A DNA stretch of 64,000 nt, taken from assembly GCF_008642335.1 (NCBI RefSeq), contig NZ_CP029191.1, positions 5,394,001-5,458,000 on the forward strand. The letters are read 5' to 3'. Origin of the DNA: Streptomyces venezuelae. GTDB taxonomy: Bacteria; Actinomycetota; Actinomycetes; Streptomycetales; Streptomycetaceae. The notes under the pieces are model-generated. The model saw nothing but the letters and a program-made list of their open reading frames with translations, was not told the origin of the DNA and made no database searches. Numbering within the stretch: the first letter of the stretch is position 1; each line of letters begins with the position of its first letter. Positions 10,009 to 56,539 of the stretch are shown here, piece after piece. The translations under genes were made by a program, and so were the position numbers.

Positions 10009-10018
10009 CCCGCCATTG

Positions 10019-10609: not shown

Positions 10610-10747
10610 GGCCGCCTCCTTTGCAAGGCGCGACGGCCGCCTGTCGCGGCCGCCTCGTATGCCCTGCTTGTACCGGAGTTCCGGTGCCCGGACCAGCTGT
10701 TCGGAAGCGATCCGGGGCCTGTTCGGGCACCGTGCGAGCCGATCCGG

Positions 10748-12600: not shown

Positions 12601-12702
12601 CCCCGGGGCCGTGTCCCCGGCCGCGGCACGGGGTACACCCCCTCCGTACGCGCCCACACGCCGAGGAACGGCCACCGTCCGCATCCTTCCCGGGGTGAGT
12701 CC

Positions 12703-13818
12703 ATGACGGACACGACGACGGACACGGCAGGCACGGTGCACGTGGAGGGGCACATCCTGGAACCCGGTCGGCCGGGTGAGCCCGGTGAGGGGCTGGAGGC
12801 CGCTGACATCCTGGCGGCGGCCAGGAAGCTCGTCGACCCGGAGCTGCGCAGGGCGATCGAGACGCTGCCCGGATCCCTGCGCAGGGTCGCGCTCTACCAC
12901 TTCGGGTGGGAGCACGCCGACGGCACACCGGCCGCGGGGAGTGCGGGCAAGGCCATCAGGCCCGCGCTCGTGCTCACGGCGGCGCGGGCCCTCGGCGGGG
13001 ACCCCGTGGGCGCGGTGCGGGCCGCCGCCGCCGTGGAGCTGGTCCACAACTTCACGCTCCTGCACGACGACGTGATGGACCGCGACACCACGCGCAGGCA
13101 CCGGCCCACCGCATGGACCGTGTTCGGCGACGCCGACGCGATCCTCACCGGTGACGCCCTGCAGGCGCTGGCGCAGCGGCTGCTCGCCGAGGACCCCCAC
13201 CCGGGGGCCCCGGCCGCCGCCGCCCGCCTCGCCACCTGTGTCATGGAGCTCTGCGCGGGCCAGCACGCGGACTGCGCGCTGGAACGCCGCGGCCCGGACG
13301 AGGTCACGCTCGACGAGTGCCTCGCCATGGCCGAGGCCAAGACGGGGGCGCTGCTCGGCTGCGCCTGCGCGCTCGGGGCGGTGTACGCGGGCGCGGACCA
13401 CGAGGAGGTCGACTCGCTCGACGGCTTCGGCCGGGAGGCGGGTCTCGCCTTCCAGCTGATCGACGACGTCATCGGCATCTGGGGCGACCCCCACCGCACC
13501 GGCAAACCGGCGGGCGCCGACCTCGCCGCCCGCAAGAAGTCCCTGCCCGTCGTCGCCGCCCTGGCGTCGGGCACACCGGCCGCGGCCGAACTCGCCGAGC
13601 TGTACGACAGGCCGCCCGGCGGCGCGGAGAGCGCGCCCGAGCAGGCGGCGCGCGCGGCCCGTGCCGTGGAGCGGGCGGGCGGCCGCGACTGGGCGCAGGT
13701 GCACGCCGCCGACCGGATGTCCCGCGCGATCGGACAGCTGGCCGCGGCGGTGCCGGACCCGGAGGCGGCCGGCGGTCTGCTGGCGCTCGCGGAGTTCGTG
13801 ACGCGACGTACGTACTGA
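12703..13818 (+). CDS. polyprenyl diphosphate synthase, probable encapsulin cargo
   Basis: A 371-residue trans-isoprenyl diphosphate synthase that would condense isopentenyl diphosphate with allylic diphosphates. The first aspartate-rich motif is intact (LLHDDVMDRDTTRRHRPT, near residue 123). The second is LIDDVIGIWGD (near 255), a DDxxG-type variant. A Thr/Gly/Pro-rich N-terminal tail of about 35 residues precedes the catalytic fold and is a plausible shell-targeting segment, as described for family 2 encapsulin cargo. ATG 12703 has GGGGTGAG upstream. It sits directly behind the encapsulin gene on the same strand. Chain length of the product cannot be read from sequence. Confidence 0.88.
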   Translation: MTDTTTDTAGTVHVEGHILEPGRPGEPGEGLEAADILAAARKLVDPELRRAIETLPGSLRRVALYHFGWEHADGTPAAGSAGKAIRPALVLTAARALGGDPVGAVRAAAAVELVHNFTLLHDDVMDRDTTRRHRPTAWTVFGDADAILTGDALQALAQRLLAEDPHPGAPAAAARLATCVMELCAGQHADCALERRGPDEVTLDECLAMAEAKTGALLGCACALGAVYAGADHEEVDSLDGFGREAGLAFQLIDDVIGIWGDPHRTGKPAGADLAARKKSLPVVAALASGTPAAAELAELYDRPPGGAESAPEQAARAARAVERAGGRDWAQVHAADRMSRAIGQLAAAVPDPEAAGGLLALAEFVTRRTY

Positions 13819-13963
13819 ACGTGACGCCGAACGCGCGACGCCGAACGCGACGTACGCACGGAACGGGTCACCACGTACGCTGCGAGCGGCGCGCAGGCGG
13901 GCGGGCACGGCATGGTGCCGGTCGGCGCGCGGTCGTATGCGGACGAGCGGACAGGGGCGGGCT

Positions 13964-14566
13964 GTGGGTGTGGCGATCCGGAGAGCAGGGGCGGCCGACC
14001 GGGAGGACGTGATCCGGCTGCTCGACGCGGCGTTGGTGCACGACCCGGTGAGCAGTTGGGTCTTCCCCGAGGAGGGCCACCGTCTGCGCACGCACCGGGC
14101 CCTGATGGGCGCCTTCCTCGACATCGCGCTCGACGAGGGGTACGTCGACATCACCGAGGACGGTGCCGCCGTGGCGCTGTGGTGGTCCGTACCCGCGGGC
14201 CCGCAGGGGGACGACGGCGGTGCGGAGGACGGGCCCGCGCTGCTGCGGCAGGCCGTCGATCCCGGCAACGAACGGGTCGAGGTGATCGGCCGGCTGACCG
14301 AGGAGATCCACCCGACCGACCGCGCGCACGAATACCTGCACCTCATAGCCGTGCGCCCCGACCGCCAGGGCGAAGGACTCGGTACGGCACTCGTCACCGC
14401 CGTGCTCGACCGCTGCGACCGCGACGGCCTGCACGCCTATCTGGAGGCCAGCAACGCGCGCAGCCGTGACCTGTACGCGCGCCTCGGCTTCACCTTCATG
14501 GGGACGACGCTCGACCTGCCCGACGGGCCGCCCATGTGGCCGATGTGGCGCGCGCCGCGGGTCTGA
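13964..14566 (+). CDS. GNAT-family N-acetyltransferase
   Basis: About 200 residues of GCN5-related acetyltransferase that would transfer acetyl from acetyl-CoA to an amine. The acetyl-CoA site is visible as EYLHLIAVRPDRQGEGLGTA (R/QxxGxG/A) and the late SNARSRDLYARLGFTFMG segment is characteristic. GTG 13964 was preferred because AGGGG lies 6 nt upstream; ATG 13937 and GTG 13970 are alternatives. It follows the encapsulin-prenyl synthase pair by 145 bp, a gap containing a short direct repeat of GACGCCGAACGCG. A link to the compartment is not supported. Substrate unknown. Confidence 0.82.
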   Translation: MGVAIRRAGAADREDVIRLLDAALVHDPVSSWVFPEEGHRLRTHRALMGAFLDIALDEGYVDITEDGAAVALWWSVPAGPQGDDGGAEDGPALLRQAVDPGNERVEVIGRLTEEIHPTDRAHEYLHLIAVRPDRQGEGLGTALVTAVLDRCDRDGLHAYLEASNARSRDLYARLGFTFMGTTLDLPDGPPMWPMWRAPRV

Positions 14567-18162: not shown

Positions 18163-18792
18163 CTATCTTCCGCGCACCGCGTCAAGCGCCGGTGCGATGA
18201 CGGCGAAGACCCGGTCCGTCAGTGCGGCCGGGTCCTCCGCGCCGTCCCCCGCGCTCCATCTCTGCAGCACGGCTCCGAAGGCGGACAGGGCGATACGGGC
18301 CGCCAGTTGCGGATAGAGGTCCGTCCGCGGGTCGAGGCCGAGGCGGTGGGCGAGTTCCTCGGCGAGTTCGCCGCCCCACTGCGCCTGGCGCTCCAGGAAG
18401 CGGGCGTGCAGGGCCGGGCTTTCGAGGATCAACTGAGTGACGCGCAGGGCCTGTTGACTCGGACCCGCGCAGGCGTTCACGGAGACCCAGACGGTGTGGC
18501 GCAGTGCGACCGACGGCGGTTCCTCGGCCGGGCGGGACGCCAACTCCGCGCGCATGTCGGTGCCCACGTCGGCGAGCAGGTGGATCACCACGTCCTCTTT
18601 GGACGCGAAGTACCGGAAGAAGGTCCGCTTGGACACCCCCGCGACGGCCGCGATCTCGTCGGCCGTGACCGCGTCGAACCCCCTGCGGGCCAGCAGCCGC
18701 AGCGCGGCCGACGTCAGCTCGTCCGAGACGAGTTGGCGCTTGCGTTGGGCCAGGCTCACTTCCGGGTGGGTACTCACTGCCTCAGTGTACAT
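18163..18792 (-). CDS. TetR-family transcriptional regulator
   Basis: A 209-residue TetR regulator with an N-terminal helix-turn-helix (TADEIAAVAGVSKRTFFRYF, residues about 42-62) and a C-terminal domain of the MftR/TetR_C type (AARIALSAFGAVLQRW). The start at 18792 is uncertain: GTG 18777 gives a shorter protein with GAGG just upstream. It is divergent from an SDR gene, and a 19-bp inverted repeat lies between them, so it likely represses the SDR-thioesterase pair and possibly feeds into control of the polyketide cluster. Confidence 0.85.
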   Translation of the reverse strand: MYTEAVSTHPEVSLAQRKRQLVSDELTSAALRLLARRGFDAVTADEIAAVAGVSKRTFFRYFASKEDVVIHLLADVGTDMRAELASRPAEEPPSVALRHTVWVSVNACAGPSQQALRVTQLILESPALHARFLERQAQWGGELAEELAHRLGLDPRTDLYPQLAARIALSAFGAVLQRWSAGDGAEDPAALTDRVFAVIAPALDAVRGR

Positions 18793-18860: not shown

Positions 18861-18878
18861 TAGGGCAGCTTGTGTCGT

Positions 18879-19817
18879 ATGAGTAATCAGCGTGGCTGGA
18901 CCGCCGAGCAGATCCCTGACCAGAGCAACCGCGTCATCGTCGTCACCGGGGCCAACAGCGGCCTCGGTCTCGCGACCACCCGGGCCTTGGCGCGCAAGGG
19001 CGCGCACGTGATCCTCGCCGTGCGCGACGAGGCGAAGGGCCGCGCCACCGCCGACCGGCTCACCACCGAGATCCCGGGCGCCCGACTGGAGGTGCGGCGG
19101 GTCGACCTGGCCGACCTGGACTCCGTCCGCGCCTTCTCCGACAAGCTCCACGCGGACCACGCGCGCCTCGACGTGCTGGTCAACAACGCCGGCCTGATGG
19201 CGCCGCCGAAGCGGCTCCTCAGCCCGCAGGGCCACGAGGTGCAGTTCGCCGCCAACCACCTCGGCCACTTCGCGCTCACCGGGCTGCTGCTCGACCTCCT
19301 GGAGGCCGGGGACGACCCGCGGGTCGTGACCGTGAGCTCGCCCAACCACCGCCAGGCGAAGCTCTTCTTCGACGACATCAACGGCGAGCGCAAGTACTCG
19401 CCGATGGGCCACTACAACCAGTCGAAGCTCGCGAACGCCGTCTTCGGCTGGCAGCTCCACCAGAAGCTGACCGCGGCGGGCAGCCGGGTGCGCAGCCTGC
19501 TCGCCCACCCCGGCTACACCTCGACCAACCTCCAGACCAGTTCGCCCGCGGGCATGGTGAAGTTCCTGTTCGGGCGGCTGCTGCTGCCGCTCGCCCAGAC
19601 CCCGGACCAGGGCGCGCTGCCGACGCTGTTCGCGGCGACGGACCCGAGCGTGACGGGCGGCCAGTTCATCGGCCCCGACGGCATGGCCGAACTGCGCGGC
19701 GCGCCCAAGACGGTGGAGCTCGCGCCCCGTGCCGCGGACGCGGAGAGCGGCCGCAAGCTCTGGGACCTGTCGGAGGAACTCACCTCCGTGCGCTTCGCGT
19801 TCCGTGCCGCGGCCTGA
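18879..19817 (+). CDS. SDR-family oxidoreductase, retinol-dehydrogenase/protochlorophyllide-reductase-like
   Basis: A 312-residue short-chain dehydrogenase of the larger RDH/POR-like type. It has the cofactor motif TGANSGLGLATTRAL (near residue 24), NNAGLM, a Ser in VVTVSS and the catalytic YNQSK. ATG 18879 begins MSNQRGW and fits the family. It is followed after 18 bp by the type II thioesterase gene, so they probably form one transcript. It is under a divergent TetR gene. It could be a tailoring enzyme of the polyketide cluster or an adjacent general reductase; the sequence does not decide. Confidence 0.86.
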   Translation: MSNQRGWTAEQIPDQSNRVIVVTGANSGLGLATTRALARKGAHVILAVRDEAKGRATADRLTTEIPGARLEVRRVDLADLDSVRAFSDKLHADHARLDVLVNNAGLMAPPKRLLSPQGHEVQFAANHLGHFALTGLLLDLLEAGDDPRVVTVSSPNHRQAKLFFDDINGERKYSPMGHYNQSKLANAVFGWQLHQKLTAAGSRVRSLLAHPGYTSTNLQTSSPAGMVKFLFGRLLLPLAQTPDQGALPTLFAATDPSVTGGQFIGPDGMAELRGAPKTVELAPRAADAESGRKLWDLSEELTSVRFAFRAAA

Positions 19818-19835: not shown

Positions 19836-20603
19836 ATGACCGCGAAGACCGCCGGGGGCAGTGCCTGGATCCGCCGGTACCGGCCGGCCGACGAGGCGCG
19901 CGCGAGGCTGCTGTGTCTGCCGCACGCCGGCGGCTCCGCCTCGTTCTACCTTCCGTTCGCCCGCGCGTTCGGGCCCGACATCGACGTACTGACCGTGCAG
20001 TACCCGGGGCGCCAGGACCGCTGGCACGAGCCGTGCGTGGACTCCGTCACCGGTCTCGCCGACGCGCTGCTCGACGAGGTGCTGCCGTGGGCCGACCGGC
20101 CGCTCGCGCTCTTCGGGCACAGCATGGGCGCGATGGTCGGTTACGAACTGGCCGTACGCCTGGAGCGCGCGGGGTCGCCGCCCCTTGCCGTGTTCGCCTC
20201 CGGGCGGCGCGCCCCGTCCCGGCTGCGCGACAACCCGTCGCCCATCCATCTGCGCGACGACCGCGGCCTGATCGACGAACTGCGGGCGCTCAGCGGCACC
20301 GACGCCCGGGTCTTCGAGGACGAGGAACTGCTGCGCAGGGCGCTGCCCGCGATCCGCAGCGACTACAAGGCGGCCGAAACCTACCGGTACGTCCCGCGCC
20401 CCCCGCTCTCGGCGCCCGTCCACGTGATCGTCGGCGCCGATGATGGCCGAGTCACGCCGGACGAGGCGCAGGCGTGGGCCGGTCACACGACGGGCGGTTT
20501 CAGCCTGGAGACCCGTTCCGGCGGGCATTTCTATCTCACGGAACAGATGTCAAGTGTCGCCGATACGGTTTCAAGGCGGATTCTAGCGGGACTATTGCCG
20601 TAA
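19836..20603 (+). CDS. type II thioesterase (editing enzyme for polyketide synthase)
   Basis: A 255-residue external thioesterase that would clear wrongly loaded or decarboxylated acyl groups from carrier domains. The alpha/beta-hydrolase features are LLCLPHAGGSASFYLPFAR, the nucleophile elbow GHSMG with Ser96, an Asp in VGADDGRVTP, and the catalytic His in GGHFYLTEQ. Proteins of this family are typical partners of modular PKS and NRPS clusters. The gene is 18 bp behind the SDR gene and upstream of the P450, which marks this arm as part of the cluster. Confidence 0.92.
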   Translation: MTAKTAGGSAWIRRYRPADEARARLLCLPHAGGSASFYLPFARAFGPDIDVLTVQYPGRQDRWHEPCVDSVTGLADALLDEVLPWADRPLALFGHSMGAMVGYELAVRLERAGSPPLAVFASGRRAPSRLRDNPSPIHLRDDRGLIDELRALSGTDARVFEDEELLRRALPAIRSDYKAAETYRYVPRPPLSAPVHVIVGADDGRVTPDEAQAWAGHTTGGFSLETRSGGHFYLTEQMSSVADTVSRRILAGLLP

Positions 20604-20670
20604 TCCAGCGTCGCTATTGCGGAATTACATTTATCGTGTGACCTTGATCACGGCAAAATGTATTCCGGTA

Positions 20671-20700
20671 AACCACCTTGTTTGCGCCAACCACCTTGTT
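20671..20700. repeat. tandem 12-bp direct repeat upstream of P450 gene
   Basis: Two exact copies of AACCACCTTGTT start 18 bp apart (20671-20682 and 20689-20700) in an unusually AT-rich 145-bp gap (20604-20748). The position, 49 bp before the P450 start, suggests a regulator-binding site. Confidence 0.5.
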
Positions 20701-20748
20701 AGGCTGAATTCCTCTTTCGGATGCGAGTCGTGCGAGGTGTTGGAAAAC

Positions 20749-21981
20749 ATGGGGGACGTGGACGTGGCCGAGACAGACATTGCCGGCCTACCGGCATACC
20801 CGTTCATAGGGCCGGACGACAATCCGTTCATCCCGGTCACCGGGGCGGATCTGGAACGGCTCGAAGGGCCCGTGGGGAAGGTGCGGCTTCCGTTCGGGGG
20901 ATGGGCGTGGCTCGTCACCCGCCACGAGGACGTGCGGCAGCTGCTGCGGCACCCGGGCTTCAGCTCCGACCAGTACAAGCCCGGGTTCCCGGTGCTCAAC
21001 CCGATCCCGCCCAAGCAGGACGACGCCTCGGGCCTGTTCATCTTCATGGACGGCGACGCGCACAGCCGGTTCCGCAAGATGCTGACCGCCGAATTCATGA
21101 TCAAGAACATCCGGCGGATCGAGCCCCTCATCGAGGAGACGGTCGTCGAGGCGCTCGACCGCATGCGGGACCTCGGCGCGCCCGCCGACCTGATGGCGGA
21201 GTTCGCGCTCCCCGTGCCGTCGATGACGATCTGCCACCTCCTCGGCGTCCCGTACGCCGACCACGACTTCTTCCAGGACCACAGCCGCGTGATCATGGAC
21301 AGGAAGTCGGGCCCCGCGGAGGTCGAGGCGGCCCTCGGCGCCCTCGCGGGACTCCTCGGCGACCTCGTCGACGCCAAGCGCGAGGATCCCGGCGAGGACC
21401 TCCTCAGCCGGCTCACCCTGGAGCGCGTGGACACCGGCGAGCTGCGCAAGGACGAACTCGTCAGCCTGGCCATGCTCCTGCTCGTGGCGGGACACGAGAC
21501 CACCGCGAACATGATCGGCCTCTCGGCGCTGGTGCTCCTGCAGCACCCCGAGCACCTCGAAGCCCTGCGCGAGGACCCGTCGCTCGCGCCGGGCATGGTC
21601 GAGGAGCTCCTCCGCTACCTCACCGTCGTACGCACCGGGCTGCCGCGCCTGGCCATGGAGGACGCGGAGATCGGCGGGCAGCAGATCCGCGCCGGTGAGG
21701 GTGTCGTCGCGATGCTCGCGATGTCCAACCGCGACCAGTCCGTCTTCTCCGACCCGGACCTGTTCGACCCGCAGCGGCGCGAGGCGCACCGCCACATGGC
21801 GTTCGGCTTCGGCCTCCACCAGTGCATCGGCCAGCCGCTGGCCCGCGCCGAGCTGCGCGTGGCCCTCGTCGAACTGGCCCGCCGCTTCCCGAAGCTGCGC
21901 TCCGAACTGTCCCTCGCCGACGTCCCGCAGCGCCCCATGGCCGTGACGTTCGGCGTGGCCGAGCTGCCCGTGACGTGGTGA
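20749..21981 (+). CDS. cytochrome P450, probable tailoring oxygenase
   Basis: A 410-residue soluble bacterial P450 (CYP105-like in overall look) that would hydroxylate or epoxidise the polyketide. The I-helix oxygen-activating motif is AGHETTANM, the ExxR motif EELLR, and the heme loop FGFGLHQCIGQPLARAEL with ligand Cys359. ATG 20749 was chosen because GAGGTG lies 9 nt upstream; the longer frame adds an unlikely 44-residue leader. The ferredoxin gene follows within 4 bp, giving an electron-transfer pair; a reductase is not in the window. Confidence 0.93.
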   Translation: MGDVDVAETDIAGLPAYPFIGPDDNPFIPVTGADLERLEGPVGKVRLPFGGWAWLVTRHEDVRQLLRHPGFSSDQYKPGFPVLNPIPPKQDDASGLFIFMDGDAHSRFRKMLTAEFMIKNIRRIEPLIEETVVEALDRMRDLGAPADLMAEFALPVPSMTICHLLGVPYADHDFFQDHSRVIMDRKSGPAEVEAALGALAGLLGDLVDAKREDPGEDLLSRLTLERVDTGELRKDELVSLAMLLLVAGHETTANMIGLSALVLLQHPEHLEALREDPSLAPGMVEELLRYLTVVRTGLPRLAMEDAEIGGQQIRAGEGVVAMLAMSNRDQSVFSDPDLFDPQRREAHRHMAFGFGLHQCIGQPLARAELRVALVELARRFPKLRSELSLADVPQRPMAVTFGVAELPVTW

Positions 21982-21985
21982 CGTG

Positions 21986-22204
21986 ATGACGATGCGGATC
22001 ACGGTGGACAGGGAGCTGTGCGCGGGCGCCGGCAACTGCGTGGCGACGGTCTCGGAAGTGTTCGACCAGGACGAGAAGGAGGGGCTCGTGCTGCTGCAGA
22101 TCGCGGAGCCGCCCCAGGACCTGTATGAACTGGTCGAGACGGCCGCGCAGATGTGCCCGGTGGGCGCGATCGAGATCGAGGAGCGTGTGCCCGCGTCGTC
22201 CTGA
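21986..22204 (+). CDS. [3Fe-4S]/[4Fe-4S] ferredoxin, redox partner of the P450
   Basis: A ferredoxin of about 72 residues supplying electrons to the adjacent P450. The cluster Cys are in ELCAGAGNC and QMCPVGAI; the position between the first two Cys carries Ala-Gly in place of a Cys, typical of [3Fe-4S] Streptomyces ferredoxins. Three in-frame starts (GTG 21983, ATG 21986, ATG 21992) lie within 10 bp and cannot be separated; the first core residues are RITVDRELC. The gene is 4 bp from the P450 stop, indicating translational coupling. Confidence 0.92.
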   Translation: MTMRITVDRELCAGAGNCVATVSEVFDQDEKEGLVLLQIAEPPQDLYELVETAAQMCPVGAIEIEERVPASS

Positions 22205-43056: not shown

Positions 43057-46000
43057 ATGCCCACCGAGAACGAACTGCTCCAATACCTCAAGGCGGTCTC
43101 GCAGGAACTGCACGCCACCCGAGGGCGGTTGCAGAGCCTGGAGGACCGTCGCAGCGAGCCCGTGGCGATCGTCGGGATGAGCTGCCGGCTGCCCGGCGGC
43201 GTGTCCTCGCCGGACCACCTGTGGGACGTCGTCCTCAAGGGCGAGGACATGATCGGCAACTTCCCCGCCGACCGCGGCTGGGACGTCGACGCCCTCTACG
43301 ACCCGGAGCCCGGCAACCCCGGCAAGACCTACACCCGCTCCGGCGGCTTCCTGCACGACGCGGCGGACTTCGACCCGGCCTTCTTCGGCATCACGCCCCG
43401 CGAGGCCCACGGCATGGACCCGCAGCACCGCCTCATGCTGGAGGCGTCGTGGCAGGCCCTGGAGAGCGCGGGCATCAACCCGCAGACCCTCAAGGACACC
43501 GCCACCGGTGTCTTCGCCGGGTCCTTCCACCACGACTACGACCCCGGCGGCGGCAGCGTCGGCAGCCTCGTGTCCGGCCGCGTCTCCTACGCACTCGGCC
43601 TCCAGGGCCCGGCCGTCACCGTCGACACGGCCTGCTCCTCCTCGCTGGTGGCCCTGCACCAGGCCGTGCAGTCGCTGCGCGACGGCGAGTGCACGCTCGC
43701 CCTGGCGGGCGGCGTGACCGTGCTGTCCACGCCCGGCGTCTTCATCGAGTTCTCCCGCCAGCGCGGCCTCGCCGCCGACGGCCGCTGCAAGTCGTACGCC
43801 ACCGCCGCCGACGGCACCGGCTGGGGCGAGGGCGTGGCCGTACTGGCCCTGGAGCGCCTGTCCGACGCGGAACGCAACGGCCACCGGGTCCTCGCCGTCG
43901 TGCGGGGCAGCGCGGTGAACCAGGACGGCGCGTCGAACGGCCAGACCGCGCCCAACGGACCCGCCCAGCAGCGCGTCATTCAGGACGCCCTCGCCTCGGC
44001 CGGGCTGACGACCGCGGACGTCGACGTCGTCGAGGGCCACGGCACCGGCACGACCCTCGGCGACCCGATCGAGGCGCAGGCGCTGCTCGCCACGTACGGC
44101 CAAGGCCGGGACCCGGAACGCCCGTTGTGGCTCGGTTCGGTCAAGTCCAACATCGGGCACACCCAGGCGGCGGCCGGTGTCGCGGGCATCATCAAGATGG
44201 TCCAGGCGATGCGGCACGGCATCATGCCCAGCACGCTGCACGTCGACGAGCCCTCGCGCCACGTCGACTGGACCGAGGGCCAGGTCAGGCTCCTCACGGA
44301 GAACCGCCCGTGGCCCGAGGGCGACCGCCCGCGCCGGGCCGGTGTCTCGTCGTTCGGCTACAGCGGCACGAACGCCCACGTGATCGTGGAGGCCGCTCCA
44401 GCACCACAGTCCTCGCCGCGCGTCGCCGAGTTGGAGCCGTCGGACGACGGTTCCCTGGTGCTGCCGTGGGTGCTGTCGGCGAGGAGCGAGGCCGCGCTCG
44501 CCGAGCAGGCCGAGAGGCTGCTGGCCCGGCTCGACGAGGGCGGGCTGCCGGGGCTGCGGGACGTGGGCCACACGCTGGCGGAGGGGCGTGCGGTGCTGGA
44601 GCGCCGGGCGGTCGTGCTGGGCAGCGACATCGACGAACTCACCGCCGCCTTGACCGAGTTGGCGGCAGGACGTGCGGCCCCCGGTGTCGTATCCGGGCGT
44701 GCCGTGACGAACGCCTCCAGTGGTGCGGTGTTCGTGTTCCCGGGGCAGGGTTCGCAGTGGGTCGGGATGGCTCGGGAGCTGTTGGAGTTCTCGCCGGTGT
44801 TCGCGTCGCGGATGGCGGAGTGTGGTGCTGCGCTTGAGCCGTTTGTGGATGGCTGGTCGCTGCTTGATGTGGTGCGGGAGGGCGACGAGGAGGCGCTGCG
44901 TCGGGTTGATGTGGTGCAGCCGGTGTTGTTCGCGGTGATGGTGTCGCTGGCGGAGTTGTGGCGTTCGCTGGGGGTGCGGCCTGCTGCGGTGGTGGGGCAT
45001 TCGCAGGGTGAGATTGCTGCGGCGTGCGTAGCCGGTGCGCTGTCGTTGGGTGATGCGGCGCGAGTCGTCGCGTTGCGGTCGCGGGCGATCGTGCGGCTGG
45101 CGGGTAGGGGCGGGATGGTGTCCGTTCTGGCGCCGGAGGCTCAGGTTGTGGGGCGGTTGAGTTCCGGGCTGCAGGTGGCTGTGGTGAACGGGCCTGAGCA
45201 GGTCGTGGTGTCGGGTTCGCCTGGCGAGCTGGATGCGTTCATGGCCGTGTGTGAGGCCGATGGGGTGCAGGTGCGGCGGATCGCCGTGGACTATGCCTCG
45301 CATTCGCCGCAGGTCGAGGAGCTGCGGGATGAGCTGCTGGATGTGCTCGCGGAGATCCAGCCGCAGGCCGGGCAGGTCCCGCTGTTCTCCACGGTCACCG
45401 GTGACGTGATCGACACGGCGGTGATGGATGCGGAGTACTGGTTCACGAATCTTCGGCAGACCGTCCGGTTCGACGCCGCGCTGAAGAACCTGATGGGCGC
45501 CGGGCATCGCGTCTTCGTCGAGTCCAGCCCGCATCCCGTGCTCCTCGGCGCCGTCGTGCAGTACGCCGATCACCTCCGTACGAAGGGTGTGACCGCCGTG
45601 GGCACGCTCCGGCGGAACGAGGACGAGAAGGCTCAGCTGCTCCGTGGTCTGGCCGAGGTGTTCGTCGCCGGTGCCGACGTGAACTGGTCGCTGTGGCTCG
45701 CGGGCGGCGAGCTCGTCGAGCTGCCGACGTACGCCTTCCAGCGCCGCCGGTACTGGCAGCCCGCCGCGGCCGCCTCCGCCGACGTCGGCTCCGCGGGCCT
45801 GGAAGCCGTACGGCACCCGCTGCTCGGCGCGTCCGTGCCTCTCGCCGACAGCGACGACGTCGTCCTCACCGGGCGCCTGTCCCGCGCCGCGCAGCCCTGG
45901 CTGGCGGACCACGCGGTCTTCGGCACGGTCATCCTGCCCGGCACCGCCTTCGTCGAGCTGGCCCTGCGCGCCGCCGACGAGGTGGGCTGCGACACGGTGC

Positions 46001-49000
46001 GGGACCTGACCCTCACCGCGCCGCTGCGCCTGCCCGAACAGGGCGAGGTCGACGTACAGGTGCAGATCGGCGGCGCGCACGGCACGGACGGTGCGGATGG
46101 CGCGGGGCGTCCCCTCGACGTCTACGCCCGGCCCCGCACGTCCGACGGTTCCGGGACGTGGACCCGCCACGCGTCCGCGCTCCTGACGACCGGTGGCACG
46201 GCGACGGACACTTCCGGCGACAACCCGCTGTACGGCGCCGCCTGGCCGCCCGCGGGCGCCGAACGCCTGGACGCCGCCGCGCACTACGACACGATGGCGG
46301 ACGCGGGCCTGGAGTACGGGCCCGCGTTCCAGGGCCTCTCCGACGTGTGGCGGCTCGACGGCGAGATCCTCGCGCAGGTCGCCCTGCCCGGCCGGCAGGC
46401 GGAGGAGGCGCGGCGCTTCGGCGCCCACCCCGCCCTCCTCGACGCCGCGCTGCAGGCCGCCGCCGTCGACAGCCTCGACGGCGCCACGCCGCTGCCGTTC
46501 TCCTTCGGCTCGGTCACCCTGCACAGCCGGGGCGCGAACGAGGTGCGGGTACGCATCGTGCCCACCGGCGACGACACGTTCACGGTCGAGGCGGCCGACC
46601 CGTCCGGTACACCGGTCGCGCGCATCGACTCCCTCCTCGTACGCCCGGTGGCCGCAGGCGATCTCGCCGCTCCGGACAGCAGCACGCGGTCGCTGCTCTC
46701 CCTCGCCTGGACGCCGCACGCGGCGGGCGACGGCGGGACGGGTGCGGGGACGGACACCTCGGACGTCACGGTCCTCGACGTCGCCGCGGCCGTCGGTGAC
46801 ACCGGCACTGGCACCAACACCGACGCCGCCCGTGCGCGGGCCGTTCTCCAGGACACCCTGGTCCGGGTGCAGGAGTGGCTCGCTCAGGACCGGCCCGCGT
46901 CGGCCCGCCTGGTCGTGCTGACCCGGCACGCCGTGCTCACGGGGGCCGAGGCGCCAGGCGCCCCGCTCGACCTGGCCCAGGCCTCCGTATGGGGCCTCGC
47001 CAGGGCCGCCCGCGCGGAGAACCCAGGCCGCGTGATCCTCGTGGACACGGATACCGCTACCGGCGCTGACGGGCTCGACCAGGACGCTTTCACCGGTGTA
47101 CTGCGTTCCGGCGCACCCGAACTTGCCCTGCGGGACGGCAAGTTGTACGTACCGTCCCTCCGCCCCGAAGACACGCAAGCCACCCAGACCACCCGAGCCA
47201 CCCCCCGTACCTCTCCCGCCGCCGCTCTCGGCACCGGCACCGTCCTCATCACGGGCGGCACCAGCGGCCTCGGCGCGCAGGTCGCCCGGCACGCCGCCCG
47301 GCTCGGTGCCCGGCACCTTCTCCTGCTGTCGCGGCGCGGCCCCGAGAGCGAGGGCGTGGCGGCCCTGAGGGACGAACTCACCGCCTCCGGAGCCCGGGTC
47401 ACCGTCGTCGCGTGTGACGCGGCCGACCGTGAGCAACTGGCCCGTGTCCTGCGCCAGTTGCCGCCGGAGTATCCGCTGACCGCCGTCGTCCACGCCGCGG
47501 GCATACTCCGTGACGCCGTCGTCGAGTCCATCGACGCGGACAGCCTGAACGCCGTGCTGCGGCCGAAGTCCGACGCCGTCTGGAACCTCCACACGCTGAC
47601 CGAGGGCACCGAGCTCTCCGCCTTCGTCGTCTTCTCCTCCCTCGCCGGCGTCCTCGGCGGTGCGGGACAGGGCAGTTACGCCGCCGCCAACGCGTTCCTC
47701 GACGCGCTGATGCAGCAGCGCTGCCGTACCGGACTGCCCGGACTCTCCCTGGCCTGGGGCCTGTGGGCCGAGGCGACCGGCATGACCGGGCACCTCGGCG
47801 ACGACGATCTGGAGCGGATCAACCGCGGCGGCATCGCCGCGCTCACCACCGAGCAGGGGCTCGCGCTCCTCGACGCGGCGCTCACCCGGGACGCGGACGA
47901 CGCGCTGCTCCTGGCGGCCGCCCTCAACGAACCCGTCCTGCGCACCACCGAACCGGCGCTGCTGCCCCCGCTCCTCGCGGGCCTGTACCCACCGCGCCGC
48001 CGCCTCGCGGGATCCCGCGAGGGACGCCCGGCGGACGCCGGCGGGCGGCTCTCCCTCGACTCGCGGGACGCGGTCGTCGAACGGCTGCGGTACCGGTTCG
48101 CCGCGACGATGGGCTTCGGCACCGACGAGCTCGACGCCGGCGCGGCACTCGTCGGGCAGGGCCTCGACTCCGTGATGGCCATGCAGATCCGCAGCCTGAT
48201 CGAGGCGGACTTCGGCCAGTCCCTGCCGATCGCCTCGCTGTTCAACGGAGCGAGTGTCGACTCGATCGCCGACCAGCTGATCGCGGGCGCGGGGGCCGTC
48301 GAGGCGGCGCCCGAGGGTGCGGCCGCCTCGGAGCACGCCGAGGGTGCCGAGATCGTCCACGACGTCGTACGCCACCCGGCCACCCGCGACGTCGTACGCC
48401 TCCTCCGCGCCGAACAGCACGGCACGCCCGGCGTCACCCACCACATCGGACTCGCCGTGCGCCTCACCGCGCCGACGACCCCGGAGCGGCTCGCCGAGGT
48501 CGTCGCCTCGCTCGCCGCCCGGCACGCCGCGCTGCGCACCGCGATCGTCCAGGACGCCGACGGCGTACAGCAGTTGGAGGTACGCCGCACGCTCGACGGC
48601 GACCTGGTGCGGTGGTCGGACGTCGCCGAGGACACCGACGTCGACGAGCGGCTGTGCGCGCTGATGGAGCCGCCGTTCGACCTGGCCGCGGCGCCGCTGT
48701 GGCGGTTCGAGCTGCTCGCGCGCCCGTCCGGCGAGCAGGTCCTCGTGTTCGGCGCGCACCACGCGGTCTCCGACCTGGCGTCGCTGATGCTCGTGGCGCA
48801 CGGTCTGGGCGCCGGGCTCGCGGGGGCGCAGCCGCCCGCCGAGGTCACCAACCGCGACATCGACCTGCTGCTGCGCGCACAGAGTGCACAAAGTGCTCAG
48901 AGCGGGTCCGCCGCGCCCTCCGGGGCGCCGTCGGACGCGGGGGACTGGCGTGCGGACTTCGCGGGCGCGGGACGGCTCGACCTGGAGCTGGCCGCGCCGC

Positions 49001-51336
49001 GTCCCGCGCAGCGGTCGTACCGCTCGGCCATGCACCTCGCCGAGCTGCCGCGCGAGCTCCAGGAGCGGGTGGAGAGCCGGGCCAGGGGCCTCGGCATCAC
49101 GCCCGCCGCGTTCTGGCTCGGCGCGCTGACCGCGCACCTCGCGCGGCTGCGCGACCGGGACCGGTTCGTCCTCGCCGTCCCCGTGGACACCCGCATGCAC
49201 GTGGGGGCGCTCGACGCCGTCGGCTACTTCGGGCTGCCGATCCCGTACGCCGCCCAGGTCGACGCCGACGACACCGCCGAGGACGTCCTGCGGCGCACCG
49301 ACGGCCGGCTCAGCCGGGTCCTGGAGCGCGGCGTCACGTTCTTCGACGCGATGTCGGCGCTCGTCCAGGAGGGCCTGTACCGCAAGGACGCGCCGCTCGT
49401 CGAGGTCTACTTCAACTACATGCCGCCGCAGGCCGGGGCGGCGGAGGGCCTTCACATCGTCCCCGCGGGCACCGGCTACTCCGACCTCGACCTGATGGTC
49501 ACGGTCATGCCGGGCCTCGGGAAGGTCGGCCTGGAGTACAACACGGACGTACTCGACGACGCGTCGTGTGCGTCGCTCGCGGAGGACTTCCTGCGGCTCG
49601 CCGAGGAGTTCGCGGCGGACGCGACGACACCGGCGCGACGGGCGGCCGCGCCCGCGCCCACAGCGCCCCTCGCCACCCCCGACCCCACACCCCGACTCGC
49701 TGTGGCCGCGACCTTCGCCCTCGGCAACCTCCCGGCCATGCTGTCCTTCGCCGTACGGGAAGGCGGGGTCGAGGGAGGGCCGTTCGACGTGGTGGAGGCG
49801 CCGTACCACCAGGTCCTCGCGAGCCTGCACGATCCGGGCAGCGTGTTCGTGCAGGGGGCGACGGCCGCCGGGCTCGTCCTGCTGCGCCCCGGCGACCTCA
49901 CCCGCTTCACGGACGAAGCGAGCGGACCCGAGCACGCCCTGCTCGACCAGCTCGCCGACGAGTACCCGGCCGCGCTGCGCTCCCTCGCCGAGCGCACCCG
50001 TAAGCCGCTCGTCGTCGCCTTCCTGCCCGAGAGCTTCCTGCCCGAGAGCGCGGACGACGGACGCCTGTGCGACTGGGAACGGCGGGTGACGGGGCGCCTC
50101 GCGGACGTCCCCGGCATCGCCGTCCTGCCCTCCGACACGTGGACCGGCGACGACTATCCGGTGGCGGACGTGTTCGACGCCCACACCGACGCGATGGCCC
50201 ACCTGCCGTTCCAGGACGAGTTCCAGGCACTGGTGGCGCTGCGCCTCGCCGACGTCCTCCAGCAGGTGTGCCGGCGGGCGCCCAAGGTGATCGTCGTCGA
50301 CGGCGACGAGACGCTGTGGAGCGGTGTCGCGGGCGAGGTCGGCCCGGAGAACGTCGACTTCACCGGGGCGCGTGCGCTGCTCGCGGCGCGGCTCCTCCAG
50401 TGGCGGGAGGCGGGCGTCCTGCTCGCCATGGTCTCCAACAACGACGAGGAGACCGTGCACCGCATCCTCGACCGGCCCGACAGTCCGCTGCGTCGCGAAC
50501 ACTTCGCGGCGATCTCCGCGGCCTGGGAACCCAAGTGGACCCGGATCACGCGGATCGCCGACGACCTCCGTCTCGGCCTCGACAGCTTCCTCTTCCTCGA
50601 CGACAACCCGGTCGAGATCGCCGGTGTACGCGCCCAGTTGCCTGAGGTGCTCTGCCTCACGTGCCCGAGCGCGGACGAACTCGCGGAGTTCGTGGCGCGG
50701 TTGTGGCCGATGGTGCCGCGGGCGGCGACGGCGGAGGACTCGGCGCGGGCCGACTTCTACCGCCAGGAGCAGGTGCGCGACGAGGCGAGGGCCCAGCTCG
50801 GCTTCGCCGAGTTCCTGGCGAACCTCCGGCTCGAACTCGACATCGAGCCGGTGAACGAGGAGACCGCCGAGCGCACGGTGCAGCTCAGCAGGCGCACCAA
50901 CCAGTTCAACCTGCGGCCCCGCCCGCTGGACGACGCGGAGCTGGCGCGGCTGCGGCAGAGCGGGGAGGTGTGGACGGCGACCGCGCGGGACCGCTTCGGC
51001 GCGTACGGGCAGATCGGCGTCCTCGCCGTCACCGTCGACGGCGACGCGCTCGAAGTCGTCGCCTGGATGATGAGCTGCCGCGTGCTCGGCCGGGGCGTCG
51101 AGGACCGGCTCCTGCAGTGGCTCGCGGACCGGGCCGAGGCACACGGCTGCACCGCGGTGCGGCTGATCGCCGAGAACACGCCCCGCAACATCCCCGCCCG
51201 ACGCCTCGTGTCCCGCCTCGGCGGCGGCGACGTCGACGCGCCACGCCTGGAGGCGGCGGTGGGGCTCGCACACCTTCGGGAGTTCCGTTCCTGGGACCCC
51301 GCATCGGATCACGCAGCGGAGGACAGCAATGCCTGA
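43057..51336 (+). CDS. type I PKS module 4 fused to condensation and FkbH glyceryl-loading domains
   Basis: A 2759-residue hybrid. An N-terminal docking coiled coil (1-33, [20 protein letters not shown]) matches the upstream C-terminal docking region. Module 4 has KS (Cys193), methylmalonyl AT (Ser649, YASH 746-749), DH (His952), KR (Tyr1541; LRD at the LDD position, so probably still B-type) and an ACP with [11 protein letters not shown] (Ser1705). Next is an NRPS-like condensation domain (about 1770-2190) with HHAVSD at 1901-1906, the active HHxxxD. The C-terminal FkbH-like domain (about 2212-2770) has DGDETLW (Asp2415, Asp2417), [14 protein letters not shown] and a GNAT-like tail. FkbH proteins convert 1,3-bisphosphoglycerate to a glyceryl-S-carrier. 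There is no thioesterase. The stop overlaps the next start. Confidence 0.94.
44728..45486 (+). repeat. 759-bp acyltransferase cassette, copy 3 (module 4)
   Basis: Third near-identical copy, in a module whose KS, DH and KR differ from those of modules 1 and 2. Similarity falls off sharply at both ends, which is the pattern expected from domain replacement by recombination. Confidence 0.85.
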
Positions 51337-54013
51337 GGCGGCCGGCGGCACGAGTCGCAACCGCAGTGTCAACCGGCGACCGGAAGAGGAGGCAATAGAA
51401 CGAGGCGCCCCCGCGCGAACCGCGGCGGCAAACCTCCTGACCCACTTCCGCAAACCCAAGCCCACGTCCGCGGCGCCGCAGGGGGCTGCCGGGACGACGG
51501 GGTCCGCGGGCCCTGCGAGCCCGGCGGGTCCCACGCAGGCCGCGACACCCGCCGCTGTCTCCGCGCGGCAGTCCGCCGGGTCGACGCAGCCCGCGGCTTC
51601 TGCGGGGCTGGTGAGCCCGGCGGGGCCCGCGCGGGTCGCCCCCGGCGAGCAAACCGCACCCGCCGTGCAGGTCGCACCGGCCGCACCTGCCGACGGTCCC
51701 GCCGACGGCCGTCCCGCGCGGACCGTCGCGGATGTTGCCGCGGACATCGCGGCCCGCGCCGCCCGCTTCCTGCCCGGTGGCGTGCCCGACCCCGAGACGG
51801 ACCTGTTCGACGCGGGGCTGTCCTCCGTCGACGCCGTCGAGCTCGTCGCGCTGATGGCGCGGGAGCTCGACGTACAGCTGACCCTGGACGACGTCTTCGC
51901 CGACGCCCGCCCGCGACGCCTGGCCCAACGCTGGGCCAAGGCCCTGGGCCTCCCCACGACGGCCTCGGCCGCGTCCACGACAGCCCCCGCGGCCCCCGTG
52001 GCCGTGCCCTCCGAAGCCGCCCCCGCGGCCCCGGTGGCAACGACCTCCGAAGCCGCCCCCGCGACCGTGACCCCCACGGCCGTCCCCACCCCCTCCATCG
52101 CCCCCGTCGTCATCCCCGCCCCGGCCGGCGACGCCGCCGTCCACGAGGATCTGGAGGTCATCCTCGAAGACCTCGCCCTCGCCGACCGGCTGCCGTTCAG
52201 TCGGCAGGCCGAACCCGTGGCGCCGCGGCGGATTCTGCTCACCGGGGCCACCGGGTATCTCGGGAGTCACCTGTTGCTCGATCTGTTGCGGCAGGGCGAC
52301 GCGCATGTGGTGTGTCTCGTGCGCGGCGCCGACGACTCCGCCGCGGAGCGGCGGCTCGCCGACGCGCTCGCGAGTTTCGACCAGCCCTGGACCGCCGAGG
52401 TCCGCCGCCGCGTCACCGTGCTCGCCGCCGACCTCCGGCAGCCGTTCCTCGGGTTGGCGAAGGACGTGTGGGAGGGGCTTGCCCAAGAGCTCGATTCCAT
52501 CGTCAACGTCGCCGCCGCCGTCGACTTCCTGCGCGGCTACCCCTCCCTGCGCCAGACCAACGTGCTGGGCCCGCTCGCCCTCGCCGAGCTGGCGATGACG
52601 GGTCGTCCCAAGCCGCTGCACCACATTTCCTCGGTCGCCGTCTTCAACGAGGTCGGCATCGAGAAGATGGGCGAGGACGACCCGGTCGCCCACATCGACC
52701 GGCTCTTCGCCGGGTACGACAAGTCGAAGTGGGCCGCGGAAGCCGTGCTGCGACGCGCCCGCGAGCACGGGCTCACCGTCACGTTCCTGCGGCCCGGCGC
52801 CATCGGCGGGCACACCCGCACCGGTGTGTACAACCCGCGTGACCTCAGCACCGGCCTGATCGGCGCGTTCTCCCGGTACCGGACCGTGCCCGCCTTCAAG
52901 TTCATGAACCTCGCGCCGGTCGACTGGATCAGCAAGGTGACCGCCGCCGTCGTCTTCGACCCCGCCGCGTGGGGCCAGAACTACAACGTCACCGGCCGCG
53001 CCGAGACCCTGCCCCAGCTGGTCAAGGACATGAAGCTGGCCGGGATGAACGTCCGTGTCGCCAACTGGCGCGAGTGGCGGGACGATCTCATCGCGCGGCA
53101 TGCCGCCGACCCCGTGCCCGAGCTCGACTTCCTGATCCGCATCCTGCGCAGCCCCACCGCGATGAAGCTCTTCGAGGCGCTGATGTTCGGCCCGGAGGCG
53201 GGCTCGGAGCGCACCGACCGGTTCGTCGCGCGCAAGCGGCTGCCCGAGGCCGAACGGTACGGGTCACAGGCCCAGTTGAAGGCGTTCGAGCGGATGGCGA
53301 AGGACGGCGTCGCCCGGCTCCCCAGCCGCGAGGACCCGCCCTATCTGCAGTTCCGCGAGCGGACCAAGGGGCGGATCGGCCCTGTCGGAGCGGAGCGTGA
53401 CGCCAAGTGCAGGATGGCGCTGACTCTTTCGATCGCCAGCATGTACCAGGTCGTACGCCACCGGAGGATCGACGTCCGCGGCGAGGTGTTCTGTGAGCGG
53501 CTGCACGCGGAGCCGCTGACCGTCGAGGCGGGCGAGATCTGGGTGCGCCCGGACGAGGGCGTGCCGCTGCGGCACGGGAGCGACCACCCGCTGCTGCGCT
53601 ACCGGCTGGTCCTCGTGGACCGCGACGGCGGCCGCTGGTGGCTGGAGGGCTGGAAGACGGCCCGCGCGAGCCGCGACTTCTGGAAGCAGACCCGCACCAT
53701 CGACGTCACCATCGGCCGCGAGAACGAACCCGCGAGCCTTGAAGGCGTCGTCAAGGTCCCCGGCAAGAGCTACGTGCCCGATCAGATCGACGGCATCGAG
53801 GTAGACCCGCGGCTCACGTCGCAGGAGCAGCGCCTCGCCAAGCTCGCCTGGCTCTCCTGGTTCTTCGTACAGGTCGGCATGGGCCTCGCCGAACCGTCCC
53901 TGCGCGCCGTCGCGGAACTCCTCGACCTGCGCAAGGACGCCATCGACCGCGACCAGGACAAGCTGCAACGCAAGATCAGGAAGCTGATGATCAAAAGGGA
54001 GCAGACCCGATGA
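51329..54013 (+). CDS. ACP-thioester reductase fusion with an extra C-terminal domain
   Basis: An 894-residue off-loading protein. After a disordered Ala/Pro-rich leader (1-125) comes a carrier domain (about 130-205, [10 protein letters not shown], phosphopantetheine Ser166) and another Ala/Pro linker. Next is an NAD(P)H-dependent thioester reductase of the NAD_binding_4 type (about 300-640) with GATGYLGSH at 306-314 and catalytic Tyr463-xxx-Lys467. The C-terminal 240 residues ([16 protein letters not shown], then [20 protein letters not shown]) resemble a beta-rich segment found in large GMC-oxidoreductase/esterase fusions. The gene overlaps the PKS stop by 8 bp. The carrier is the likely acceptor of the glyceryl group made by the upstream FkbH domain; the reductase would release an aldehyde or alcohol. 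Confidence 0.9.
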
Positions 54014-55113
54014 CGACGCTGAGGCCCCTCCACCACGCACTCGGCGCCCGCGTCGAGGACATCCCCTTCACCGCGTCCGACGGCACCCGGCTCGGTCTCA
54101 CCCGCGTCGCCCCCGAGGACGGCTCCACCGACCGCCCGGTCGTCCTGATCCTGCACGGACTGACCGCGTCGGCCGACATGTTCACGCTCCCCGAGACCCG
54201 CAACCTCGTGGACGTCCTGCTCGACGCGGGCTACGAACCGTGGCTCCTGGACTGGCGGGGCAGCTGCCGGCTGCCGTACAACGAGGGCCGGGTCCGCTAC
54301 ACCTTCGACGACGTCGCGCTCTACGACATCCCGGAGGCGGTGGCGCTGATCAAGGAACGTATCGACGGGCGCGAACTCCTCGTCGTCGCGCACTGCATCG
54401 GCGCGATGTGCCTGTCGCTCAGCATGGCCGCGGGGCTCGTGCCGGGCCTGTCCGGCGTCGTCGCGCAGGGCGTGTTCCTCACCCCGAAGATGTCCTGGAA
54501 GACGCGTGCCCGCCTGCACTTCGGCGGCGAGCTGCTGCGCTCCCGCTTCGTCAACATCCCCACCGACTTCAAGAAGGTCGGCCTGTGGTCGAAGCACTCG
54601 CTGATCTTCGCGGAGGTGTCGCTCGGCGCCGAGTGCAAGGACCCCAACTGCCAGATCCTCCACAACGACTCGTGGGGCGTCGGCGGCTCGCTCTTCGAGC
54701 ACGACAACCTCGACGAGGTCACCCACGACCGCCTCGCCGACCTGTACGGCACGGTGCCGATGTGGATCCTGCCGCACCTGCGCAGCATCGAACTGGCGCA
54801 CACGATGATGCGGTACAACGACGGCGACGGCCGCTACGACGCGCTGCCGAAGAACGCCCTCGACGAGGCGGGCTCGTTCGACACCCCGCTGATGCTGCTC
54901 TCCGGCAGCGACAACCGCTTCTGGTACGACTCGAACGAGATCTGCCACGACGTGCTGAAGCGCCGCCACCCCGAGATGGACGTCCGGTACGTGGAGGTGC
55001 CCGGCTACGGCCACCTCGACGCGTTCATCGGCCGCAACGCCGCACTCGACGTGTTCGGCCACATCGTCGACTTCCTCGACGGGTGCCGGGTCTCCGATGA
55101 CGTCCGCGCCTGA
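54010..55113 (+). CDS. alpha/beta-hydrolase with Cys nucleophile elbow (esterase or acyltransferase)
   Basis: A 367-residue alpha/beta hydrolase. The oxyanion region is LILHGLTASADMF. The nucleophile elbow reads AHCIGA, so the usual Ser is Cys129, as in PHA synthases and dienelactone hydrolases. Asp301 (SGSDNRFW) and His335 (GYGHLDAF) complete a plausible Cys-Asp-His triad. Such a site favours acyl transfer as well as hydrolysis. It overlaps the reductase gene by 4 bp (ATGA) and resembles the hydrolase part of GMC-oxidoreductase fusions. It may act on the released ester or in release itself. Confidence 0.85.
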   Translation: MTTLRPLHHALGARVEDIPFTASDGTRLGLTRVAPEDGSTDRPVVLILHGLTASADMFTLPETRNLVDVLLDAGYEPWLLDWRGSCRLPYNEGRVRYTFDDVALYDIPEAVALIKERIDGRELLVVAHCIGAMCLSLSMAAGLVPGLSGVVAQGVFLTPKMSWKTRARLHFGGELLRSRFVNIPTDFKKVGLWSKHSLIFAEVSLGAECKDPNCQILHNDSWGVGGSLFEHDNLDEVTHDRLADLYGTVPMWILPHLRSIELAHTMMRYNDGDGRYDALPKNALDEAGSFDTPLMLLSGSDNRFWYDSNEICHDVLKRRHPEMDVRYVEVPGYGHLDAFIGRNAALDVFGHIVDFLDGCRVSDDVRA

Positions 55114-56539
55114 CCGCCCTGCCGCCCCGGCGCCCGGCACGCGGCTGCTCATGCCCGTCATCCTGCTCGCCATCTTCACGGTCCCGCTGTCGGTCTCCGG
55201 CACCGCCGTGTCCCTGGGCGACATCGCCGACGACCTGGGCAGCTCGTCGGTGGGGGAGCAGTGGGTCCTCAACGGCTACAACCTGACGTTCGCCTGCTCG
55301 ACCCTCGTCTGGGGATCGGTCGCCGACATCATCGGGCGCTGGCAGGCGCTGTTCTTCGGGCTGCTCACGTTCGGCGCGGGCTCCGCGCTCAGCCTCTTCG
55401 CCGGCGACTACTGGGTCCTCGACGGGGCCCGGCTGCTGGCCGGTGCGGGGGCCGGGGCGGTCTTCTCGGTGGGCACGGCCGTCGTGTCGTCCCACTTCGA
55501 GGGCGAACGGCGCACCCGCGCCTTCGCGCTCCTCGGGTCGGTCGCGGGCCTCTCCCTCGCGTTCGGCCCGTCCCTGTGCGGCCTGCTCACCCAGCTCTCC
55601 GGCTGGCGGCTCGTCTACGGCTTCCAGCTGGCCTGCCTGGTCGTCGCCTGCGCGGGCATGCCGCTGATCCGCCGCGCCGCCGCCCACGAGAAGCGGCACG
55701 CGGCCCGCATCGACTGGCCGGGAGCGGCGCTGTTCTGCACGGCGACCACCGTCACGCTCGGCGGCCTCGCCCTCGGCTCCGCGACGGGCTGGGCCTCGCC
55801 GCCCTTCCTGCTCTGCACGGCCCTCGGCATCGGCTGCTACGGCCTGTTCGCCTGGCGCGAGTCCACCGCGCCCAACCCGCTCCTGAGCCTGCGCACCCTG
55901 CGCAGCAGGCGCTTCTCCGGCATCACGCTGGTGGTCGCGGTGGCGTCGTTCACCTTCACCAACGCGGTCGCCTACCTCCCGGTCTTCTTCCAGGGCGCGT
56001 ACGGCGCGTCGGCCGGTGCCAGCGGCGCGTACCTGATGTTCCTGACGCTGCCCGTCCTGGTCGCCCCGCTGATCGCCGCCCGCCTGACCGCGCGCGGCAC
56101 ACCGGCCCACACGATCTTCACGTGGAGCATCGGCCTGCTGGTCGTGGGTCTCGTCCTCGCGGGCGCGACCGCCGCTCCCGGACTCGTCTGGATGATGCTC
56201 CCGATGGTCGTCGTGGGCATCGGGTTCGGGCTGCAGGCGGGCCTCGTCGACGGCGAGGCGCTCGCGCACGTGCCGGCGGACGAGGCGGGCATGGGGGCGG
56301 GCTGGATCAACACGGTCAGGCTCGGCAGCGAGGCGATCGCGGTGTCGCTCTTCGGCTCGCTGTTCGCCAGCTTCGCGGGCGACGCCGACGACGCGTCGCG
56401 CGGCGGTTTCGCCGCCATCACGATCGGCTCCACGCTGTGCGCGGCGGTTCTGGGGATCGTCTCCGTCCTCCTCATGCGACGGCGCCCCGGTCCGGCGGCC
56501 CCGGCCGGGGAACCGAGGGCGGCGGACCACGTCGCCTGA
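55097..56539 (+). CDS. MFS drug/proton antiporter, DHA2 (14-helix) family, probable exporter of the polyketide
   Basis: A 480-residue major facilitator with about 14 hydrophobic segments. Family features include the motif-A-like WGSVADIIGRWQALFFG after helix 2 and motif C-like GLSLAFGPSLCGLLTQLSGW in helix 5. It overlaps the hydrolase gene by 17 bp, so it is the last member of the PKS operon. The probable job is export of the product and self-protection. Substrate is inferred from context only. Confidence 0.9.
   Translation: MTSAPDRPAAPAPGTRLLMPVILLAIFTVPLSVSGTAVSLGDIADDLGSSSVGEQWVLNGYNLTFACSTLVWGSVADIIGRWQALFFGLLTFGAGSALSLFAGDYWVLDGARLLAGAGAGAVFSVGTAVVSSHFEGERRTRAFALLGSVAGLSLAFGPSLCGLLTQLSGWRLVYGFQLACLVVACAGMPLIRRAAAHEKRHAARIDWPGAALFCTATTVTLGGLALGSATGWASPPFLLCTALGIGCYGLFAWRESTAPNPLLSLRTLRSRRFSGITLVVAVASFTFTNAVAYLPVFFQGAYGASAGASGAYLMFLTLPVLVAPLIAARLTARGTPAHTIFTWSIGLLVVGLVLAGATAAPGLVWMMLPMVVVGIGFGLQAGLVDGEALAHVPADEAGMGAGWINTVRLGSEAIAVSLFGSLFASFAGDADDASRGGFAAITIGSTLCAAVLGIVSVLLMRRRPGPAAPAGEPRAADHVA

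Follow-up and report, generated by a model that had tools for sequence, protein, structure and literature searches.

In malleicyprol biosynthesis, the terminal condensation (C) domain of BurF links the polyketide as an ester to a hydroxy acid held on a carrier, a step that was reconstituted according to the available text of the study (PMC12304814); the BurF reductase then releases an aldehyde, trapped with 2,4-dinitrophenylhydrazine (DNPH) from substrate mimics, and the beta-keto group closes a butenolide. The same text derives the name of the BurF NEX domain from the N-terminal extension of FkbH-like proteins. For vioprolide, the available part of the article (PMC8949500) describes a C-FkbH-T arrangement in which an ester-forming C domain couples FkbH-loaded glycerate to the acyl chain. 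A related arrangement was analyzed here in Streptomyces venezuelae (8.05 Mb genome, one contig), in a stretch of 64,000 nucleotides (positions 5394001–5458000, GC 72%; hereafter the window, to which coordinates refer), where a polyketide synthase (PKS) ends in a C and an FkbH domain. The next gene encodes an acyl carrier protein (ACP), a thioester reductase (TR) and a further domain, designated X, and is followed by a gene for a hydrolase with a cysteine nucleophile. This ordered cassette was conserved among relatives and probably releases the polyketide chain by ester formation on glyceryl-S-ACP and subsequent reduction.

The last PKS gene and the cassette occupied the following positions:
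43057–48384, + strand: PKS 2 docking domain and module 4, made of ketosynthase, acyltransferase, dehydratase, ketoreductase and ACP (KS-AT-DH-KR-ACP), from Pfam and motifs, with AT motif YASH
48385–49644, + strand: C domain (PF00668), HHxxxD intact
49645–50277, + strand: FkbH N-terminal region, likely a NEX-type extension, conserved among relatives
50278–51231, + strand: FkbH domain of the haloacid dehalogenase (HAD) phosphatase/glyceryl transferase type (TIGR01686)
51719–51943, + strand: ACP with Ser166 (PF00550)
52229–53248, + strand: TR with Tyr463/Lys467 (TIGR01746)
53309–53953, + strand: X domain, a small beta-barrel and C-terminal helix, from the AlphaFold (AF) model and HHalign, without Pfam match
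54010–55113, + strand: alpha/beta-hydrolase with Cys129 nucleophile (PF00561), ortholog of FoxEI of the foxicin cluster

Both open reading frames (ORFs) of the C–FkbH and ACP–TR proteins were present (43000/43057–51336 and 51329–54013) and overlapped by 8 bases. Translation may plausibly begin at 43057, which is residue 20 when counted in the ORF from 43000, because the docking domain covered residues 22–49 of that ORF. The C domain matched PF00668 (residues 1816–2214, 83 bits) and the FkbH domain TIGR01686 (residues 2427–2744, 347 bits against a cut-off of 147). Numbered from 43057, HHAVSD began at residue 1901 and DGDETLW at 2415. In the second protein, a PP-binding domain (149–201) carried Ser166, and the TR (302–634) scored 242.7 bits against a curated TIGR01746 cut-off of 213.35, with Tyr463/Lys467 and the NAD(P) motif intact. 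A preliminary description of this DNA had placed HHxxxD at 1901–1906, DGDETLW at 2415 and the carrier and reductase residues in overlapping genes, and was exact to the residue. It had mentioned neither the X domain nor the cysteine hydrolase.

The best solved relatives of the C domain were NRPS (nonribosomal peptide synthetase) C domains, and 4znm, which we take to be the ester-former SgcC5, was a weak match (E 1.4e-5). The TR found its best solved match, by sequence and by structure (4w4t as Foldseek top match), in the R domain of myxalamid MxaA (4w4t/4u7w), which likewise performs reductive release on a PKS-NRPS line. Unlike the glyceryl ester proposed here, the substrate of the myxalamid reductase is an amide-linked amino acid unit. 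The FkbH N-terminal region resembled the N-terminus of BF1531 (3slr), the protein used for this comparison in place of BurF, only weakly and without significance. A separate second FkbH gene was located outside the window, near condensation-domain genes (genome positions 6592736–6593656, L125).

By domain order, the window resembled BurF (C-NEX-T-Red), sharing a C domain with HHxxxD and a following carrier and YxxxK reductase. BurF differs in having the N-terminal part of FkbH only, its acceptor, trigonic acid, being loaded by BurJ/BurH according to the available text, which does not mention an X domain or a cysteine hydrolase (PMC12304814). It also differs in its beta-keto chain, which permits butenolide formation, whereas module 4 of the window has DH, KR and a YASH AT. 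By analogy, the C–FkbH/ACP–TR pair looks like a full-FkbH counterpart of BurF that would load its own glyceryl. In vioprolide, unlike here, the NRPS line continues past the glycerate, and the available text makes no mention of reductive release (PMC8949500). Among open-licence articles in PubMed Central (titles and beginnings of abstracts), no paper on the full cassette besides that on foxicin was found, and no test of the complete set.

Conservation was assessed with a profile of the TR protein, which gave 169 pattern matches, of which 117 were confirmed as relatives; the best 80 loci were retained (three genomes giving two each) and are skewed to the TR family of the window because of this selection. 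Domains cut from the window were mapped onto these loci with tblastn. The preliminary description had suggested looking for other PKSs with C–FkbH followed by ACP–TR, and the order recurred beyond chance: the C domain, FkbH N-terminal region, FkbH, ACP, TR, X domain and hydrolase followed one another in this sequence on a single strand in 70 of the 71 loci long enough to include the C domain; the nine other loci begin within the TR gene or shortly before it. The complete cassette was found in 68 of 69 loci offering 5 kb or more upstream of the TR, and in two further ones (L021, L066); L024 is without the hydrolase only because its contig extends just 1,770 bases beyond the beginning of the TR domain. 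The X domain was present in all 80 loci and the hydrolase in all 78 that continue for 3.5 kb or more past the TR start. Catalytic residues were invariant throughout (C domain HH/D, 71/71; FkbH D-x-D-x-T, Lys and Asp-Asp, 71/71; ACP Ser, 72/72; TR Y/K, 80/80; hydrolase Cys, 79/79), and the FkbH N-terminal region was 44–73% identical to that of the window in loci covering it. Full cassettes also occurred in Nocardia, Catenuloplanes, Amycolatopsis and Actinomadura loci.

A cross-check starting from the hydrolase agreed with this distribution. Matches above 600 bits were obtained in 33 of 295 sampled Streptomyces genomes, at 35 places, of which 34 were fetched (the 35th being the window itself); 18 of the 34 coincided with loci of the set of 80 and 4 were too short. 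Among the 30 places with 6.3 kb or more of upstream sequence, 29 carried the complete cassette; 15 of the 30 were already counted and 15 were new, 14 of the latter being complete.

The supplier of the acyl chain varied. Four modules preceded the cassette in the window and in L014, and three in L009 and L015, while L018 and L042 displayed an AT-less KS with ACP(s) before the same C–FkbH end, a pattern also indicated by tblastn in L019 and L022. Judged by domain content, PKSs of different kinds use the cassette, the acyl source changing and the cassette remaining constant. Most loci whose last module is of the modular type had KR and DH. The AT motif of the last module was readable in 62 of 71 relatives (9 without reading) and was never HAFH, presumably the malonyl type; it read FASH in 43, YASH in 11, LAGH in 3, YSSH in 2, and YGSH, FAAH and GAGH in one each.

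In the window, the assembly line started with a KSQ (VDAAQASS at 172 of PKS 1), as the preliminary description had stated, and comprised four extension modules in total. Modules 1–3 on PKS 1 carried DH and KR; an enoylreductase (ER) was found in module 3 and its NADPH motif was disrupted by an insertion, while the corresponding ER of the relative L110 reads GAVG and may function. The AT motif was HAFH in module 3 and YASH in the three other extension modules, and the loading AT had an unusual NAAHS. If the starter is acetyl, all DH and KR domains work and the ER of module 3 is dead, the chain would be 2,6,8-trimethyl-deca-2,4,6,8-tetraenoyl. The DH, KR and YASH AT of module 4 lead one to expect an alpha-methyl enoyl ester. 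The absence of a thioesterase domain at the end of the line, also noted previously, was confirmed; a discrete type II thioesterase gene is located upstream (19836–20603). No adenylation (A) domain was found in the window (0 of 55 PF00501 matches in the genome fell within its coordinates), so that glyceryl is the only acceptor with a visible loader.

The X domain made up roughly 210 residues at the C-terminal end of the TR protein and belonged to no Pfam family. It matched the C-terminal domain of glucose-methanol-choline (GMC) oxidoreductases (HHalign 97.5%, E 6e-12, 142 columns), and its AF model (pLDDT 84.7) displayed a barrel of eight strands and a long helix at the C-terminus, nameable to fold class only. 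X-like domains occurred in GMC proteins of 1,128–1,156 amino acids (aa), one of which (P0203) adds an alpha/beta-hydrolase domain, and the GMC-type X domain was also fused to patatins (P0184 and others) and alpha/beta-hydrolases. The hydrolase start codon overlapped the TR stop, and the best solved relatives of the enzyme by sequence were gastric/acid lipases, with Cys replacing the Ser nucleophile. Seven weaker Streptomyces relatives (five at 262–289 bits, two at about 128; L089–L095) all had a GMC gene with an X domain within 3 kb. More distant relatives elsewhere in Actinomycetota, found at 10 places, had a GMC gene nearby in 7 of 9 short loci (L115–L123), and the nucleophile Cys was retained in all 16 hydrolases of these two groups. 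The X domain and cysteine hydrolase thus accompany an oxidase (GMC "cholesterol oxidase") expected to form a carbonyl elsewhere and a reductase expected to form one here. This pairing is consistent with an ester and aldehyde intermediate as well as with acyl transfer, and is proof of neither.

The preliminary description knew of no described pathway with this order, which did not hold. The foxicin cluster table (available text of PMC5318452) lists FoxBII ending in C–FkbH, FoxBIII as "PCP-TE" (peptidyl carrier protein-thioesterase, 945 aa), the esterase FoxEI (378 aa) and FoxEII (259 aa). Locus L035 (Streptomyces sp. Tue6028) encodes successive proteins of 945, 378 and 259 aa in that same order, and the 945 aa protein (L035 positions 9968–12802) scored 242.8 bits to TIGR01746, above the curated cut-off, with no thioesterase match in a Pfam scan. 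On these domain matches, FoxBIII is a thioester reductase and not a thioesterase as printed. The cassette order was already in print in 2017, under another label and, in the available text, without a reductive mechanism (PMC5318452). Both clusters share a PKS ending in ACP-C-FkbH, then a carrier-reductase protein and a FoxEI-type hydrolase, with 54% identity between window and L035 for the reductase protein and 65% for the hydrolase. Unlike the foxicin cluster, the window has a KSQ start, four modules and a cytochrome P450/ferredoxin/short-chain dehydrogenase (SDR) set, no FoxBI-type A-domain gene within its coordinates, and a major facilitator superfamily (MFS) gene instead of the FoxEII carboxylesterase after the hydrolase.

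The mechanism that we consider the more probable is set out here as predicted from gene order, domains, motifs and their conservation. FkbH would transfer glyceryl from 1,3-bisphosphoglycerate to the ACP of the next protein, and the C domain would move the branched polyene from the ACP of module 4 to a hydroxyl of glyceryl-S-ACP, forming an ester. With NADPH, the TR would reduce the thioester to free O-acyl-glyceraldehyde, or to an acylglycerol if reduction occurs twice. The X barrel may hold the lipophilic product for the coupled cysteine hydrolase, by which the acyl group would be hydrolysed or transferred; the P450/ferredoxin pair and the SDR would tailor the product and the MFS protein would export it. 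Esterification with reductive release, as proposed in the preliminary description, gained support from the recurrence of the cassette with invariant residues and from the BurF precedent in the available text (PMC12304814), whereas the supposed novelty of the order did not stand. All parts are known, and the combination is a new arrangement of known parts, not a new category.

Several observations weigh against this reading. C domains commonly form amides. The hydrolase could strip the ester again, and in the exceptional L134 a cassette-type hydrolase stood alone, with no C–FkbH or TR within 7.1 kb upstream. Among the structures found, only that of foxicin A could be connected to such a cassette; it has an amide-linked acyl group without a glyceryl ester, and an additional A domain is encoded in its cluster. 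In the available text (PMC5318452), foxicins are missing in a foxBII mutant, and the acyl chain of foxicin A, an acylamido-hydroxy-acetamido-benzoquinone, is a 2-methyl-enoyl group. This chain agrees with the branched last extender, but the way it is attached is at odds with a glyceryl ester kept in the product.

It is possible, if rather doubtful, that the acyl group ends on the amine of a separately made core, the glyceryl being lost or placed in another ring, as the acylamido-benzoquinone foxicin A, whose cluster (L035) carries the same cassette, would suggest. The window has no FoxBI-type A domain and has the MFS gene where FoxEII would stand, and the loci closest to it possess their own P450/SDR set, all of which argue against such a fate. 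A variant that we consider quite unlikely treats glyceraldehyde as a traceless handle: O-acyl-glyceraldehyde, solubilised by X, would serve as acyl donor for the cysteine hydrolase toward an amine or alcohol of the true final product. This relay would account for the foxicin A amide without glyceryl, for a cysteine lipase-fold enzyme locked to the cassette and for the occurrence of X and the hydrolase beside carbonyl-forming GMC oxidases. Cyclisation as in BurF, in which the acyl alpha-carbon would attack the released aldehyde to give a butenolide, shares the C-(FkbH N-terminal)-T-Red logic; BurF achieves ring closure through a beta-keto chain and none of the 62 readable last-module ATs in the relatives was of the malonyl type, so that this closure looks blocked and is very improbable. 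Least credible of all is a non-redox TR (R*) or a tetronate made from the FkbH unit by the usual route, in which FabH-like enzymes incorporate glycerate (available text of PMC12304814), given the intact TR Tyr/Lys and NAD(P) motif, the lack of a FabH-like KSIII gene among the Pfam-scanned genes of the cluster and the absence of an expected beta-keto chain.

Ester formation with reductive release would mean that many uncharacterised clusters share one release mode, considering the frequency of the hydrolase in Streptomyces and the cassette in other genera. It would predict a family of acyl-glyceraldehyde or acylglycerol polyketides, correct the foxicin pathway with FoxBIII as a reductase, provide a glyceryl-loading counterpart of BurF, and link polyketide release to an X/cysteine-hydrolase module otherwise found with GMC "cholesterol oxidase" genes.

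The cluster extended from 18870 to 56539, all on the + strand, in the order SDR, type II thioesterase, P450, ferredoxin-like, PKS 1, PKS 2, ACP–TR–X, alpha/beta-hydrolase and MFS. Its remaining genes and flank were as follows:
18163–18792, - strand: TetR-family regulator at the cluster flank (PF00440/PF17754)
18870–19817, + strand: SDR oxidoreductase, likely tailoring (PF00106), kept in relatives
19836–20603, + strand: type II (discrete) thioesterase (PF00975)
20617–21981, + strand: cytochrome P450, likely tailoring (PF00067), TTG start uncertain
21983–22204, + strand: ferredoxin-like protein of 73 aa, probable P450 partner, read from the sequence alone and conserved beside the P450
23178–43046, + strand: PKS 1, KSQ-AT-ACP loading module and modules 1–3, from Pfam and motifs
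55097–56539, + strand: MFS exporter (PF07690)

P450 matches of 74–89% identity were found in all eight of the closest-cassette genomes compared (L009, L010, L012–L017; L011 was outside this comparison), two of these matches counting one internal stop codon, and best matches were only 44–47% in L020, L038 and L075. The TetR, SDR, P450 and ferredoxin genes preceded a KSQ PKS on the contig of the cassette in the three loci read through (L009 with L107, L014 with L108/L109, L015 with L110); in the L016 genome, the P450 and the cassette lay on different contigs. A TetR gene was near the SDR and P450 in L107, L108, L110 and L111, and the type II thioesterase was present in L108 and L110 but not in L107 and L111. 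An MFS protein 75–78% identical to that of the window was found in L009, L010, L012 and L013, and after the cassette in no other locus at this identity. Elsewhere in the window (11194–14566), an encapsulin-like shell protein (SrpI-like, PF19307) with a cyclic nucleotide monophosphate (cNMP)-binding domain adjoined a polyprenyl synthetase gene.

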